From assembly GCA_022566265.1 (NCBI GenBank), contig JADFJG010000026.1, forward strand, positions 1 to 35,818: 35,818 bases of DNA. Reading direction: 5' to 3'. A program made the position numbers and the translations under genes. A model generated the notes under the pieces. That model made no database searches. It worked only from the letters and a program-made list of their open reading frames with translations, and was not told where the DNA came from. The DNA comes from Pseudomonadota bacterium. GTDB taxonomy: Bacteria > Pseudomonadota > Alphaproteobacteria > SMXQ01. This document shows, piece after piece, positions 3,017-12,773 of this stretch (position 1 is its first letter; each line of letters opens with the position of its first letter).

Positions 3017-4039
3017 TTGGCACTCGTCGTCGATCTCCATGCCGGCCGGGACAAGGGCCGGCGGCCATCGCTGGAACTCTTGATCGCGCTCGTCGCCGAC
3101 GATCTGGCGCGGGTCAATGAGCTCGTGCTCAAGAACATGGAAAGTCAGGTGGCGCTGATCCCCGAGCTGGCGGGCCACATCATCGCCGCCGGGGGCAAGC
3201 GTCTCAGGCCGATGCTGGTGCTGGGCGCGGCGCGGTTGTGCGGCTATGACGGCGAGCGCCATATCGGCCTCGCGGCCTGCGTCGAGTTCATCCACACCGC
3301 CACCCTGTTGCATGACGACGTGGTGGATGAGAGCGACCTGAGGCGAGGGCTCGCCACCGCCAACACGGTCTGGGGCAACAAGGCGAGCGTGCTGGTGGGG
3401 GACTTCCTGTTCAGCCGTTCGTTCCAGTTGATGGTGACCGACGGCTCGATCGACGTGCTCGCCATCCTGTCCGACGCTTCCGCCGTGATCGTCGAGGGCG
3501 AGGTCATGCAGTTGACCACGGCGAACGACACCGAGACCAGCGAGACCGCCTATCTCGAGGTCATCAAGTCGAAGACCGCGAAGCTGTTCTCCGCCGCCTG
3601 CCGGCTCGGCGCCGTGGTCGCCGAACGACCGGCGATCGAGGAGGAGGCCCTGACCTCGTTCGGGCTCAACCTCGGCATCGCCTTCCAGCTGGTCGACGAC
3701 GTGCTCGATTACTCGGCGCCCCAGGCGGTGCTCGGCAAGGCCGTGGGCGATGACTTCCGGGGGGGCAAGATCACGCTTCCCATCATCCTCGCCTTCCGCC
3801 GCGGCAACGATGGCGAGAGAGATTTCTGGCGCCACGCCCTGGAGGAGCTGGAGCAGGAGGACGGCGACCTCGAACGCGCGGTCGCCTTGTTGCACCAGCA
3901 CGGCGCGCTGGCGGATACCACGGAACGCGCCCGCCATTACGCCAAATTGGCGCGCGACGCGCTCGATATCTTCGCCGCCGGGGACGAGAAAGCGGCGCTT
4001 ATCGAGGCCGTCGATTTCTCCATCGAGCGCAACCACTAA
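3017..4039 (+). CDS. ispB: Long-chain trans-polyprenyl (octa/decaprenyl) diphosphate synthase
   Basis: Elongates farnesyl diphosphate with isopentenyl units to make the side chain of ubiquinone. The first aspartate-rich motif is LLHDDVVDESDLRRG (Asp100, 101, 104) and the second is QLVDDVLDY (Asp227, 228, 231). GGKRLRP is at 59-65 and FRGGKITLP near 247-255. I chose TTG at 3017 because GGGAGGA sits 5 bases before it, giving 340 residues, the usual family length. An upstream GTG at 2939 would add 26 residues but would include the likely promoter. Chain length cannot be fixed from sequence here; small residues upstream of the first motif (FIHTATLLHDD) fit long products. It is divergent from the DUF2007 gene and ends beside a repeat-rich gap. 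Confidence 0.93.
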   Translation: MALVVDLHAGRDKGRRPSLELLIALVADDLARVNELVLKNMESQVALIPELAGHIIAAGGKRLRPMLVLGAARLCGYDGERHIGLAACVEFIHTATLLHDDVVDESDLRRGLATANTVWGNKASVLVGDFLFSRSFQLMVTDGSIDVLAILSDASAVIVEGEVMQLTTANDTETSETAYLEVIKSKTAKLFSAACRLGAVVAERPAIEEEALTSFGLNLGIAFQLVDDVLDYSAPQAVLGKAVGDDFRGGKITLPIILAFRRGNDGERDFWRHALEELEQEDGDLERAVALLHQHGALADTTERARHYAKLARDALDIFAAGDEKAALIEAVDFSIERNH

Positions 4040-4206: not shown

Positions 4207-4328
4207 GGGAAGGGGTCAAGTCTTGATAATTATCATTTTAAGCTGGCTCTCTTCCGCGCCGCGCGAGAGGGGAAGGGGTCAAGTCTTGATAATTATCATT
4301 TTAAGCTGGCTCTCTTCCGCGCCGCGCG
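4207..4328 (+). repeat. Two tandem copies of a 59-base repeat (period 63)
   Basis: Copies 4207-4265 and 4270-4328 are identical by eye. Each starts GGGAAGGGGTCAAGTCTTGA, contains the perfect 12-base palindrome TGATAATTATCA, continues CATTTTAAGCTGGCTCTC and ends in a GC-rich CCGCGCCGCGCG. The AT-rich core contrasts with the GC-rich surroundings. The core GGGGTCAAGTCTTGA resembles repeats I have seen next to REP-associated tyrosine transposases (RAYTs); no transposase gene is present here. A relative of the core forms the 3' end of hicB at 6760-6790. Confidence 0.85.
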
Positions 4329-4419: not shown

Positions 4420-5187
4420 CTAATCGTCCCAGACCTTTTCCGGCAGCGGCAGCCCGGCGAGGTCATCGTCGCTCAACGGCCGGTCCGGCTCGGTGGCGAA
4501 ATCCTCCCTCAGCAGCATCATCAACTGGCGGACATGCTGGCCCGAATGCCAGGTGAAACGTTCGAGCACGTCGTGCAAGGAATGGGTGCCGTAATAGGTC
4601 TCGACAGGTCCCTGGCAGGACTTGTCCTCGAGCCCTTGCCACCAGTCCCTGACGCTCTTGCGGACCCGATCGCCGTAAGCGGAGATCTGCGGGGCCGTCG
4701 CCATGTCCGCCGGCGCCTCTGTGTTCAGCAGCTCGCGGGTGACCATCCCCTCGGCGCCGGTGGCGACTTCGAGAAAGGCCTCCTGGAGCCTGAAGATATG
4801 AAAGCCGAGATTGCGGTAGGTGCGCTTGCGGTCGCGCACATTGGTGTCGAGCCTGTCGGCGGGGAACTGGCACAGGTACCGCTGGGCGGCGGCGAGAATG
4901 AGGTCGAGCTTCTCGACCAACTGTTCTGGCGTGAGTTGCGCCTTGGCCTGGTATTCGACGCCGGTCAGCCGGGCCACGTCGTCGAGGGACTGGCCGAACA
5001 CCCACTCGTCGCCAAGCGCCACCACCGGGACGGAGGTGGCGCCGATGCTTCTCAGCGCCTCCATGCCGCCGGGGTCGTCCTGAATGTTGATCGATTCGAA
5101 TTCGATCCCACGGATCGAAAAGAACTCCTTGGTCCTAAGGCAACTGGTTCAACCCGGGTGCCAGAACACCCTGATGGTCTCGGACAC
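4420..5187 (-). CDS. Glutaredoxin-DinB fusion with in-frame UGA at the redox cysteine (candidate selenoprotein)
   Basis: GTG at 5187, preceded by AGGAGAGGGGA, opens a 255-codon frame interrupted only by TGA at 5151-5149 (codon 13). The N-terminus reads MSETIRVFWHPG-UGA-TSCLRTKEFF. The stop thus replaces the first cysteine of the glutaredoxin CxxC, leaving UxxC with Cys16. A cis-proline loop (TSVP, residues 51-54) completes the thioredoxin fold. Residues about 88-245 form a DinB-like four-helix domain: a helix-rich stretch with HIFRLQEAFLEV, then HSLHDVLERFTWHSGQHVRQL, whose spaced histidines are potential metal ligands. Cysteine versions of this fusion exist in other bacteria (from memory). 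Conventional gene calling would report only the 214 residues from ATG 5064. The alternatives are a nonsense mutation or a base error. Selenocysteine is favoured because the UGA falls exactly on a catalytic cysteine and everything after it is open. Confidence 0.72.
5101..5119 (-). promoter_or_regulatory. Candidate bacterial SECIS hairpin downstream of the UGA
   Basis: On the coding strand TTCGATCC and GGATCGAA form a perfect 8-base-pair stem around the loop GUG. The loop begins 37 bases after the UGA and has G first. Bacterial SECIS elements are hairpins a few tens of bases after UGA with G early in the loop; this one sits at the far end of the range I recall. A shorter alternative, CCUU-AGGACC-AAGG at 5127-5140, lies only 12 bases from the UGA. 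Confidence 0.4.
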
Positions 5188-5327
5188 GGCTCGTCCCCTC
5201 TCCTGGTAGATTCTTGTAGTGAACGTACCCAGCCTAACGAGGGTGCGGCCGGGCTGTAAAGCCAATTTCGGTCGTGATCGGGGGGAACGCGGGGCGGCCC
5301 CGTCCAGGCCGGGGCTGGTGGAGGTGT

Positions 5328-8588: not shown

Positions 8589-10283
8589 TTACGAGGCGGG
8601 CGGCAGATCGGCCACGAGGTCCGAGGCCAGCGCGTCGAAGGCCGCCCGCCAGTCCCCGTCCACCGCCTGGCGGTAGAGCCGGGAGCCCGGGAACCACGGT
8701 GATTCGGCGCCCTCGTTCATGCATTTATAATCCGCCGGGTGGGGCACGAGGATGCGGCTCGCCCGCCCGGCGCCGGCGCGAAGATGGACGTTGACGTTGC
8801 CGACGGCGACATATTCGTCGATCACCGAGAGGGTGGCCAGCATGTCCTCGACGGTCCCGTTCAGCGCCCCCAGATCGTGCACCGCGCGGCCGAGGCCGGC
8901 GGAAAGCCGGTCGATCTCACCCGCCCGAGGGCCGCTTTGCAGGGCGAGGAAGGTGCCGGGGACCTGGGACAGTCCCTTCGCCAGCCCGTCGATCGGCGCG
9001 AACTTGTAAAAGATGCCGGTACCCCCGGGGGCGCCCTTGCGCCAGCTTAGCCCGACATAGGGCGGCGGACCCAATCCCCGAAGGCGCGCCTTCATGTTCT
9101 CGACATTGGCCGGCTCGGGCGCCAACGGCAGGGGGGGTGGAAACTCGGCCGCGGTCTTGACGCCAAGAAGGAATGGCAGATCCCCCGCCAGCAGGAACCA
9201 ATCCTCGGCGGCGGGCCGGGCGTTCTCGGCGACGACGGTGTTGATGAAGGCAAGGCGTCCGGCGAGGGGGGCGAAGCGCGCGCTCGCCTGGTAGTCGATC
9301 CAGGCGCCCCGGTCCTCCAGTTCGGGCGCGAAGCGGAGGAAACATATCTCGTCCTCGAGATCGGGCTCGCCGCGGAGGAAGATGTCGCTCTCATCGAGCG
9401 CCGACGGCAAGGGCCGGCGGTCGGCCTCTCCCGCCCCGCCCGCTCCCAGCGGCCGCGAGAGGAAGGCCTCGAAACCTTCCTCGAACCTTCCCGCCGCCAG
9501 CAGCAGGACCGCCCGCAGGAACCGGGCGCGGGCGAAATCGGGCTTGGCCTCGAGCGCCTTCTCCTGCGACGCCAGGGCTTCGTCGAAGCGCCCGAGATGG
9601 CGGTAGACGATGCCAAGCGAGCTCTCGACCTCGGCCCGCGCCGGGTCGATTTCCAGGGCGCGCCGGTTCGCCGCCGCGGCGCCCTCGAAGTCCCGCTTCC
9701 GCGTCAAGGCCCTGGCGAGGTTGGCGTGGGTGGTGGCGAGGTCGGGCTTGAGTTCCATCGCCTGATTGAACCGCGCGATGGCGTCGTCCGTCCTCGCCTC
9801 CTGCAACAGCGTCACGCCGAGATTGTTGTAAGCGGGGACGTTTTCAGGGTCGGCGGCGATGGCGCGCTCGAACGCCCCGATGGCGTCCTGGTAACGGCCG
9901 GCATGTATCAGTGCGCTACCCAGGTTGTTGTGGGCATCGGAAGAGCCGGGCTCGGCGGCGATCGCGCGCTCGAAGTGAACGATGGCCCGGTCGGTCTCGC
10001 CGCGGCCGAGCAGCAGCGTGCCGAGGTTGTTGTGGGCCTTGGTGAAGTCCGGCTTCGCCTTGAGCGCGCGGTTGAAGAATTCGATGGCGGGCGGCACCTT
10101 GCCGCTCTTGGCGGCGATCCCCCCCATGAGGTGGAGCGCCTCGGCGTGGTTGGGGTCCGTTGCCAGGATCCCCCGGCAGACCGACTCGGCCTTCATCAAT
10201 CGGCCGGCGATGGCGTGCTCATAGGCGACATCGTATTCGGCGCCTTGGCCCCCTTGGGCCTCTTCGCCCTCGTTTTTCACCAT
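8589..10283 (-). CDS. TPR protein with C-terminal glycosyltransferase-like domain
   Basis: A 564-residue protein. Residues about 20-285 are a run of seven to eight tetratricopeptide repeats with the consensus ..A..NLG..L...G....AI..F..A....P; the row 'AHNNLGTLLLGRGETDRAI' is typical. Residues about 300-564 resemble the degenerate GT9/GT41-like domain often fused to such repeats: YVGLSWRKGAPGG, FLALQSGPRAGEIDRL, a helix with EDMLATLSVIDEYVAVGN, and SPWFPGSRLYRQ near the end. ATG at 10283 is preferred over an upstream TTG at 10337. A protein or glycan glycosylation role is inferred from the fusion and from the DxD transferase gene that follows 41 bases later. No membrane segment is visible. Confidence 0.78.
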   Translation of the reverse strand: MVKNEGEEAQGGQGAEYDVAYEHAIAGRLMKAESVCRGILATDPNHAEALHLMGGIAAKSGKVPPAIEFFNRALKAKPDFTKAHNNLGTLLLGRGETDRAIVHFERAIAAEPGSSDAHNNLGSALIHAGRYQDAIGAFERAIAADPENVPAYNNLGVTLLQEARTDDAIARFNQAMELKPDLATTHANLARALTRKRDFEGAAAANRRALEIDPARAEVESSLGIVYRHLGRFDEALASQEKALEAKPDFARARFLRAVLLLAAGRFEEGFEAFLSRPLGAGGAGEADRRPLPSALDESDIFLRGEPDLEDEICFLRFAPELEDRGAWIDYQASARFAPLAGRLAFINTVVAENARPAAEDWFLLAGDLPFLLGVKTAAEFPPPLPLAPEPANVENMKARLRGLGPPPYVGLSWRKGAPGGTGIFYKFAPIDGLAKGLSQVPGTFLALQSGPRAGEIDRLSAGLGRAVHDLGALNGTVEDMLATLSVIDEYVAVGNVNVHLRAGAGRASRILVPHPADYKCMNEGAESPWFPGSRLYRQAVDGDWRAAFDALASDLVADLPPAS

Positions 10284-10509
10284 ACCCGAGTGTCCTGAAT
10301 GGAAGTGAGATCGGCCACCGGCGAAGCCAGGGTGCAATGCGTGGCGGAATTATAACGGAGTTCCGGCCGAGGGTCCAAGGCCACGCGCCGCCGGTCGGCG
10401 CCGGACCGCCATCGCGACCGCACGCGGTGGCTCGCCGCGAAGCGGCCTCACCGGTGTTGAATTTGGAAAATGAAAAGGCTTCAGGCGAGCCGGCGGACGC
10501 GGCGCGGCG

Positions 10510-11640
10510 TCACTGCGGGATGATGGTTTCCGAAGAGGCGAATCCGTTCAGTTTCGCCAGCAAATATTCCAGGTTGTCGGAACCGATATCCATGTCCTCG
10601 AACTGGGTGAGCACCCGTTCGATCATGCGCTTGGTGAAGCGTTCGCGGTCGTTTTCCTGGCCGTCATAGCCGGTTTCCCGGGCCACCTCGACGGCCATCT
10701 TCACCGCCGGCAGCAGCGCCTTCGGCAACAGCGCCTTGTCGTAGATGGACTTGAGGCCCAAATCCCCCCCGTCGTAAATGAGCATCCGGGCGTTGACCAC
10801 CGAAACTCCGGCGCGCCGCGCCAGCGCGGCCTCGAAGAACGCCAAATCGCCCATGCAAAGCGCTCTCAGGATGATCGACGGGGTGAGGCGCGAATTCTCG
10901 TGAAGCTGGAGCACCAGCTCTTCGACCTCACCGCTCTCGACGCCGGCCCGGACGAGGGAAAGGGTGGCGCGTTCGCGCATGCCCAGGACCAGGTCGGTCG
11001 TGACCTCGGGCGACAATTCGTGGTGTGTCGCCAGATGATCCTTGAGCTTGTCGGAGACCATGGTCACCAGGCGCTCGGCGATGCCGACCGGCAGTTTCGC
11101 GCGGTAGGCCATGCGCTCATTCACTTTTTCGCTTTCGCCGAAGTGATCGATGGCCTTTTCAAATGACCGATCGGAAATCTCCGCGCCGACATTGTCCATC
11201 AGGGTAACGACGACGTCCTCGTTCCTGGTATCGACCAAGGCGTCCGACACCATTTCCGACACCGTCTCGCGCCGGGCGACGGCGGACTGCTTGGCGGCAT
11301 CCGAGGCGTTGATGATCTCGACCAGGTCGTCTTCGGTGAGCACCTGGGAAAACTCGAGGACGGGGATCGCCACCGAATCCACGTCCTTCGCCAGGCTCAA
11401 GGCGACGTCGTGGGGAATCTGCGGGCATTCCTTGAGATGCTCGGACAACGCCTCGCGCACCTGGACTTCCACATCGCGTGCCATGATGCGGAATATCTCT
11501 TCCGCCAGGCGGCGTTCGCTGTCGCTGAAACCCCCACCGCCGAAACGGGAGGCGATCTTGCCTATCGTGCCCGCCCTCGTCTCCGGCGAGGGATCGCACA
11601 TCAGCTTTTCGACATCGGCTTTGGTCAGACTGGCTTTCAT
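10510..11640 (-). CDS. DUF2336 domain protein
   Basis: A 376-residue cytoplasmic protein composed of helical HEAT-like repeats, matching DUF2336, a family expanded in Rhodospirillales and related alphaproteobacteria. It starts MKASLTKADVEKLMCDPSPETRAG (ATG 11640). It keeps the motifs I associate with the family: AEEIFRIMARDVEVQVREALSEHLKE, DVDSVAIPVLEFSQVLTEDDLVEII and RETVSEMVSDALVDT. No catalytic residues are known to me. It stands alone on this strand, with a 219-base upstream gap that is AT-rich near 11765-11800 and probably holds its promoter. Confidence 0.85.
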   Translation of the reverse strand: MKASLTKADVEKLMCDPSPETRAGTIGKIASRFGGGGFSDSERRLAEEIFRIMARDVEVQVREALSEHLKECPQIPHDVALSLAKDVDSVAIPVLEFSQVLTEDDLVEIINASDAAKQSAVARRETVSEMVSDALVDTRNEDVVVTLMDNVGAEISDRSFEKAIDHFGESEKVNERMAYRAKLPVGIAERLVTMVSDKLKDHLATHHELSPEVTTDLVLGMRERATLSLVRAGVESGEVEELVLQLHENSRLTPSIILRALCMGDLAFFEAALARRAGVSVVNARMLIYDGGDLGLKSIYDKALLPKALLPAVKMAVEVARETGYDGQENDRERFTKRMIERVLTQFEDMDIGSDNLEYLLAKLNGFASSETIIPQ

Positions 11641-11859
11641 TCGTGTCTTTCGTGGGCCTCGAGTATCGGTGCCGGGCGATGGGGGAACGACCGGCGATGG
11701 CCCCTGGGACAAAAATCGGATCCGCCGAGAGATCGCCGCCGGAGAGCGCCGCCAATAGCCGTAAGGTTAATTAAACTCTAACGCCCAAAGATTAAGGAAA
11801 CCTGAATCCCGCCGCCGGGTGGATGCCGGCGCGGGCACGCGGATAAGGGATAGCCCCGA

Positions 11860-12612
11860 TCAGCGGCTCTTCGGGAGTCCCTGGCCAACATTCTCGATCT
11901 GGTCCGCCAGCGAGATCGGCTGGGCCGAGGCGATCTCCAGGTCACGGTCCTCGAAGACGTCCTTGCCCGGGTGTTTCTTCGCCCATTCCTCGACCACGGT
12001 CTCGCGGAGGCGTATCAGCGCCGCCACCTGGGGGTGGAACAGGCGGATCATGGCGCCGACCCACCGGTTGACGGGCCAGGAAGGCTGGGCGTGCGAGATG
12101 ACGAAGGAATCCAGCATCGCGCAGACATCCTCGGCCCGGTACCACACTTCGCCGGTTACCCAGCGGTTGGTGGTGAACAGGCAGATGGGAAATCCGTAGC
12201 TGTCCATGGAGATGCCGATCAGGTGGCTCAAGGCGTCGTCCTTCTCGTCCGGCAGCTCGAGGTCGGGAAGGGGCGCGGGCTTGACGCCCTTCGGCATGCC
12301 CTTGGGCCGCAGGAAGGTGTGGAAGTGGCCGTGTTCGCCGACCCTGAGCTCCGCCGGATGGGCGTGGTAGTAGTACTGGGAATGGGATTCGTTGTCGTAG
12401 ACGTCGCCGTCCGGGTAGTGGTTCCATTCGTAAAAGGTGCCGGTGTCCTTGATCAGCTCGCCGACGAGGTTATCACTGGTTTTTTCCAGCACCTGGTGCA
12501 CTTCCATGACCTCTTCACCGGCCGCCGCCATATCCTCGAGCCGTTGCCTCGAAAGGCCGGAGAAGTCGATTTCCCCGATCCCGGGTGGGGTCCTGGATTG
12601 ATCGGCCGGCAT
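11860..12612 (-). CDS. His-rich protein of unknown function (DUF6969-like), paralogue A
   Basis: A 250-residue protein without signal peptide or membrane segment. A conserved cluster of aromatic and histidine residues runs from GTFYEWNHYPDGDVYD through SHSQYYYHAHP to GEHGHFHTFLRPKGMP (about residues 60-108). The spacing HxxxxxHxH...HxHxH looks suited to binding a metal. It is followed by DDALSHLIGISMDSYGFPI and LFTTNRWVTGEVWYRAEDV. A second copy with the same order of motifs lies at 14783-15559. I recall the family name DUF6969 but am not sure of it. ATG at 12612 is chosen over the GTG one codon earlier. The gene stands at the left border of the P460/Tp34 region. Confidence 0.7.
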   Translation of the reverse strand: MPADQSRTPPGIGEIDFSGLSRQRLEDMAAAGEEVMEVHQVLEKTSDNLVGELIKDTGTFYEWNHYPDGDVYDNESHSQYYYHAHPAELRVGEHGHFHTFLRPKGMPKGVKPAPLPDLELPDEKDDALSHLIGISMDSYGFPICLFTTNRWVTGEVWYRAEDVCAMLDSFVISHAQPSWPVNRWVGAMIRLFHPQVAALIRLRETVVEEWAKKHPGKDVFEDRDLEIASAQPISLADQIENVGQGLPKSR

Positions 12613-12773
12613 CACGTCATTCCCGATGAAGCGGTTCGATGGTGGCGCGTCGGGCGCCCCCGTCCAGAGATAATGTAAACACGCCCCATCCCGATGTTAA
12701 GCGGCGCGTGCCATCGGGCGCGCCGATAGGCGCGGCGATCGGCGTGATGATACCTGTTGCCGATAAGCAGCGC

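Follow-up and report, generated by a model that had tools for sequence, protein, structure and literature searches.

The window (the whole stretch of 35,818 nucleotides that was analysed) carries on its minus strand a gene whose frame reads M-SETIRVFWHPG-UGA-TSC, in which the TGA is the sole internal stop among 255 codons and is followed by 242 sense codons and then TAG. The gene and its features are:

4420..5187, minus strand: complete gene of the predicted selenoprotein (255 residues, Sec at 13, stop TAG at 4420-4422), with full-length homologues
5185-5187, minus strand: start codon GTG
about 5197..5204, minus strand: ribosome binding site AGGAGAGG, 9 nt before the GTG and the same in the same-genus copy
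5149..5151, minus strand: in-frame TGA, predicted Sec13, first position of a U-T-S-C redox motif; UGA in 22 homologues and Cys in 13 at the same column
5140..5142, minus strand: Cys16, the putative resolving cysteine of UxxC, invariant
5101..5119, minus strand: bacterial SECIS-like hairpin with an 8-bp stem (5112-5119 paired with 5101-5108), loop GUG at 5109-5111 and apical C-GUG-G, fitting the bSECIS model (PMC13188914)
5002..5172, minus strand: glutaredoxin domain PF00462, residues 6-62 (Pfam 39.3 bits, cut-off 22.9; dithiol cGrx1 7c10, TM 0.87)
4522..4818, minus strand: DinB_2 domain PF12867, residues 124-222 (Pfam 29.8 bits, cut-off 24.8; best fold match YfiT/BstA 1rxq), with invariant His130, His214 and His218

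The first in-frame ATG past the UGA lies at 5064 and corresponds to residue 42, so that a standard gene call begins there, gives an ORF of 214 aa and loses 41 residues. An earlier note, made from the sequence alone, had described the GTG start, the ribosome binding site, HPG-UGA-TSC and the 242 further codons exactly, base for base, and had rightly expected standard annotation to drop the N-terminal 41 residues; the perfect 8-bp hairpin that it placed 37 bases after the UGA is real, 37 nt being the distance to the start of the loop. Elsewhere in the window, a perfect 63-bp direct repeat (4207-4328, 1.9 copies, 100%) with a palindrome TGATAATTATCA in each copy was observed just downstream of the gene; a comparison with the 63 nt that directly follow the final sense codon of the same-genus copy showed no such repeat there. 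A minus-strand ORF with many TPR repeats was located at 8589-10337, beside a DUF2336 protein (10510-11712) and a DUF6969 protein (11860-12615).

In 22 homologues, the window copy among them, UGA occupied a single active-site position, the relatives being 41-92% identical, and Cys (TGC or TGT) occupied that column in 13 others; an in-frame UGA where homologues have Cys, one criterion for a bacterial selenoprotein, was therefore found here. The copy from another species of the same genus (L003 and L004, which are one contig and were counted once) was 91% identical with dN 0.042 and dS 0.202 and kept the TGA; its 12 codons before the UGA and its ribosome binding site were unchanged, and the 300 nt upstream had just 30% ungapped identity. 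Twenty further copies from several families, 42-55% identical to the window copy, also kept the TGA, two of these twenty coming from MAGs filed as Gammaproteobacteria. The same TGA was present in independent assemblies, and neither near nor distant TGA homologues contained a frameshift or a second stop. Within the window's class, the gene was found in 32 of 385 sampled genomes, with a copy carrying one TGA in 19 of those 32; outside this sample, TGA was present in L005, L006 and L008 and Cys in L007. A search of the class of L006 yielded, apart from L006 itself, a single Cys copy, and sampling the phylum brought in no genome from outside the window's class. A Cys paralogue (L002 / L094, contig C25:5253-6005) is present in the window's own genome as well; it reads CSSC, is 43% identical, lacks the hairpin and belongs to a Cys group with good support. 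About two changes of state suffice for the tree of UGA and Cys copies, and a single UGA clade is compatible with the data (p-AU 0.37, not rejected).

The window hairpin starts 29 nt past the UGA and its 3-nt loop 37 nt past it, and the energy of the hairpin is -9.8 kcal/mol. The published bSECIS model specifies a loop of 3-9 nt, a stem of 4-16 bp, G in the first two loop positions, a spacing of 16-37 nt and an MFE of -7.5 kcal/mol or lower (PMC13188914), and the window hairpin agrees with all of these (loop GUG, 8 bp, 37 nt, -9.8 kcal/mol); among the homologues only that of L069 missed the energy limit (-5.7). Only 2 of 200 shuffles of the 26-nt hairpin folded better, but the single-sequence fold alone is unconvincing, because an unconstrained fold of the 64-72 nt after the UGA gave an insignificant z-score. 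The hairpin was present at 36 or 37 nt in all 22 UGA copies, with apical CGUGN and covarying stem pairs. The closing C-G pair was formed in 15/22 (loop GUG) and open in 7/22 (loop CGUGN), which is why the loop starts at 37 or 36 nt, and the outermost pairs varied too. In the UGA copies, 91.5% of cells were paired, compared with 16-60% when the pattern was slid, and 13 double-sided changes were counted against a shuffled mean of 4.3 (0/500 shuffles as high), whereas the same columns of the Cys copies were 44% paired, no better than shuffles, and the hairpin was absent. Moreover, the arginine codon of the loop was CGT in 22/22 UGA copies, compared with 44/402 of the other arginine codons in the same genes, and no Cys copy had CGT at this place; a codon invariant in UGA copies and rare elsewhere reflects a constraint on the RNA and not on the protein. 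Judged by these comparisons, the hairpin is more than chance, the deciding point being its recurrence with UGA in 22/22 copies and its absence from the Cys homologues.

Further, we found the selenocysteine machinery, a second criterion for a bacterial selenoprotein, in the window's genome: tRNA-Sec (76.5 bits, anticodon TCA, i.e. UCA, by ARAGORN), SelA (573 bits) adjoining SelB (437.5 bits), and SelD (294 bits). This SelD makes up the C-terminal part of an ORF of 755 aa (L039 1387-3654) whose N-terminal half is FAD/NAD(P) oxidoreductase-like by eye, and the SelD active site appears to read CGGC, with Cys and not Sec. SelA was detected in 18/19 UGA genomes, compared with 3/13 Cys genomes (G378 and G347 among these 13 being classed by absence of a stop alone) and 56/385 genomes overall (14.5%; Fisher p 4e-5 and 1e-15). 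The one UGA genome of the class sample with no detectable SelA, G025, is 77% complete. Outside the sample, the UGA genomes G011 and G012 had SelA, the Cys genome G013 did not, and the UGA genome G014, a fragmented MAG, had no SelA and a fragment of SelD at the end of a contig. The tRNA-Sec pattern of the class sample agreed with that of SelA except in G004, G377 and G025; tRNA-Sec was not recovered in these three UGA genomes or in G014, all draft assemblies in which part of the candidates was scored, and SelA was present in G004 and G377. The SelA association represents few independent events, because the UGA copies are related and the tree needs about two state changes; indeed, an independent-contrast test of UGA against SelA had 1-2 independent pairs and low power. 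As to gene order, no sel gene lies near the glutaredoxin-DinB gene in the window's genome, selA lies about 8-9 kb from the gene in G067 and G107, a sel gene lies about 17 kb away in G209 (Cys copy), and in L005 a convergent tRNA-Sec gene (3141-3235) is located about 24 nt beyond the stop of the selenoprotein gene. Genome G003, of the same family, had SelA, SelB, SelD and tRNA-Sec and no glutaredoxin-DinB match, so that other selenoproteins presumably sustain the use of Sec there.

The read-through protein was modelled with AlphaFold2 from an alignment of 34 sequences (mean pLDDT 94.9, pTM 0.91). Membership of the glutaredoxin family is indicated by PF00462 above its gathering cut-off and by UTSC as a CxxC-type motif after the first strand (5-9), and membership of the DinB/YfiT S-transferase-like group by the profile above its cut-off, the four-helix fold and the invariant H130, H214 and H218. 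Foldseek matched the model to YfiT/BstA 1rxq, other DinB proteins, thioredoxin-like BC3987, NrdH and dithiol cGrx1. By sequence, the best PDB matches were all Grx/NrdH and the closest solved relative was cGrx1 (7c10/7c12), which we take to be derived from a selenoprotein. U/C13, C16 and the three histidines were invariant in the alignment, and the motif WHxxQHxRQ was nearly so. In BstA the three histidines are H67, H160 and H164; each of the eight members in B. subtilis is a bacillithiol transferase that depends on metal (PMC5815605).

The frame could be read in other ways. If the UGA were a true stop, a DinB-only protein would start at the internal ATG (5064), which is where standard ORF calling places its 214-aa ORF, with a dead or a leader peptide before it. 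This is very improbable, for the ribosome binding site and the 12 codons that lead up to the UGA are preserved in the same-genus copy while the upstream 300 nt are not (30% ungapped identity), the Cys homologues read straight through the position, and a protein begun at residue 42 would have lost the first strand of the glutaredoxin fold together with its active site, although the rest of that fold is retained with dN/dS about 0.2. A single base change from a Cys codon to TGA, by sequencing or assembly error or in a decaying pseudogene, would suffice to produce the window copy, whose assembly is a draft in 173 contigs, but the TGA recurs in 22 homologues from different assemblies, which have neither a frameshift nor a further stop, and selection is purifying; we consider this account extremely unlikely. 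The frame would likewise be open if UGA were generally reassigned in these genomes, for example to Trp; however, TGA is the true stop of the Cys paralogue L002 in the window's genome and of several UGA copies (e.g. L008, L047, L050, L054, L058, L067-L069, L071), so UGA is not globally reassigned, and the homologues have Cys, not Trp, with the hairpin limited to UGA copies, which leaves such reassignment the faintest of chances.

The window gene thus very probably encodes a selenoprotein, and decoding of the UGA as Sec at codon 13 is supported by comparison of homologues and by the machinery found in the genome. This reading, proposed in the earlier note, is strongly supported by the UGA column, the machinery, the covarying hairpin and the co-occurrence with SelA. 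The checks that the note had suggested bear it out: all of selA, selB, selC and selD are present, the hairpin fits the published bacterial model and covaries, and Cys replaces UGA in some homologues while near and distant relatives keep it; frameshifts or further stops in close relatives, which the note had held to speak against it, do not occur in the TGA relatives. Translation would start at the GTG, and SelB with Sec-tRNA-Sec would decode the UGA as selenocysteine, guided by the hairpin 30-48 nt downstream. The predicted 255-residue product would have an N-terminal glutaredoxin-fold domain, with Sec13 attacking and Cys16 resolving, and at its C terminus a four-helix domain of the DinB/YfiT type carrying a putative three-histidine metal site, as suggested by profile, fold model and invariant residues.

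We infer from the fold, the three conserved histidines and the likeness to BstA that a Sec-glutaredoxin may be coupled to a metal-dependent thiol-transferase-like site; the coupling of glutaredoxin chemistry to a DinB thiol-transferase that the earlier note suggested is accordingly plausible on these grounds. As the most likely function we tentatively propose that the protein is a metal-dependent transferase of low-molecular-weight thiols, or another enzyme of the DinB fold related to these, and that the fused Sec-glutaredoxin drives or recycles its thiol or mixed-disulfide chemistry. Glutathione, the partner thiol expected in the host group of this protein, would probably take part, and the enzyme would serve to detoxify compounds or to repair thiols. 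ORF clustering around about 24 homologues revealed no common neighbour gene beyond close relatives, and therefore gives no context-based function. The DinB part of the selenoprotein might instead be just a scaffold or dimerisation domain, the activity being that of an ordinary Sec-glutaredoxin or NrdH-like reductase: known Sec-glutaredoxins function without a DinB partner, and the best PDB sequence matches are all Grx/NrdH. Histidines 130, 214 and 218 are nonetheless invariant in 34 sequences, and WHxxQHxRQ nearly so, as in a working active site, which makes the scaffold role possible though rather unlikely. Returning to a coupled enzyme, Sec13 and the DinB metal site could even share one catalytic cycle, in which metal-activated thiol conjugation or deconjugation yields an intermediate resolved by the fused selenol, a conjecture that we regard as doubtful.

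Among known systems, Sec-containing glutaredoxin (Grx, PF00462, UxxC) is an experimentally verified selenoprotein family (PMC13188914) and resembles the window protein in its glutaredoxin fold, attacking Sec in UxxC and SECIS-type hairpin; it is entered as Grx alone, whereas the window protein is fused to DinB and has UTSC/USSC with the flank W-x-P-G. The UXX-star proteins (NF041114, NF041211, NF041212, NF047338) are also selenoproteins with a Grx-like fold, and HUGP/GUXX-star (NF045501) is a Grx-like selenoprotein that is also a fusion, but both lack a DinB domain and a review table gives their motifs as UxxT/GxGU; the window protein scored below the NCBIfam UXX-star curated cut-offs (31.7 against 66 for NF041212, 20.5 against 100 for NF041211). 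Members of the DinB/YfiT superfamily (BstA-H, PMC5815605; mycothiol-dependent maleylpyruvate isomerase) share the four-helix fold and the three conserved histidines, with H-x3-H at the last two, but those described in PMC5815605 have neither a fused glutaredoxin nor Sec. Cys-type glutaredoxin domain-containing / DinB family proteins (WP_244817409.1, WP_207446294.1) have the same two-domain architecture at about 40-47% identity, but carry CSSC instead of UTSC and are not selenoproteins. The 2026 list of 119 prokaryotic selenoprotein families has no DinB entry, a Sec-Grx/DinB family is absent from NCBIfam 20, and a literature search, whose scope excluded subscription literature and RefSeq protein records, found no known Sec-DinB protein. 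By its architecture, glutaredoxin-DinB forms a new family of selenoproteins, in which domains already known are combined with the Sec system that is standard in bacteria.

The family is present in about 5% of the sampled genomes of the window's class, where ordinary gene calling cuts it down, and gives many alphaproteobacteria a possible reason for retaining the selenocysteine machinery. Sec and Cys paralogues within one genome offer a direct test of the advantage of Sec. Moreover, the family brings the redox chemistry of selenium into the DinB S-transferase-like superfamily, a large group whose role is little understood except in bacteria that make bacillithiol or mycothiol; if Sec13 and the metal site do share one cycle, this would be the first selenium-dependent member of that superfamily.
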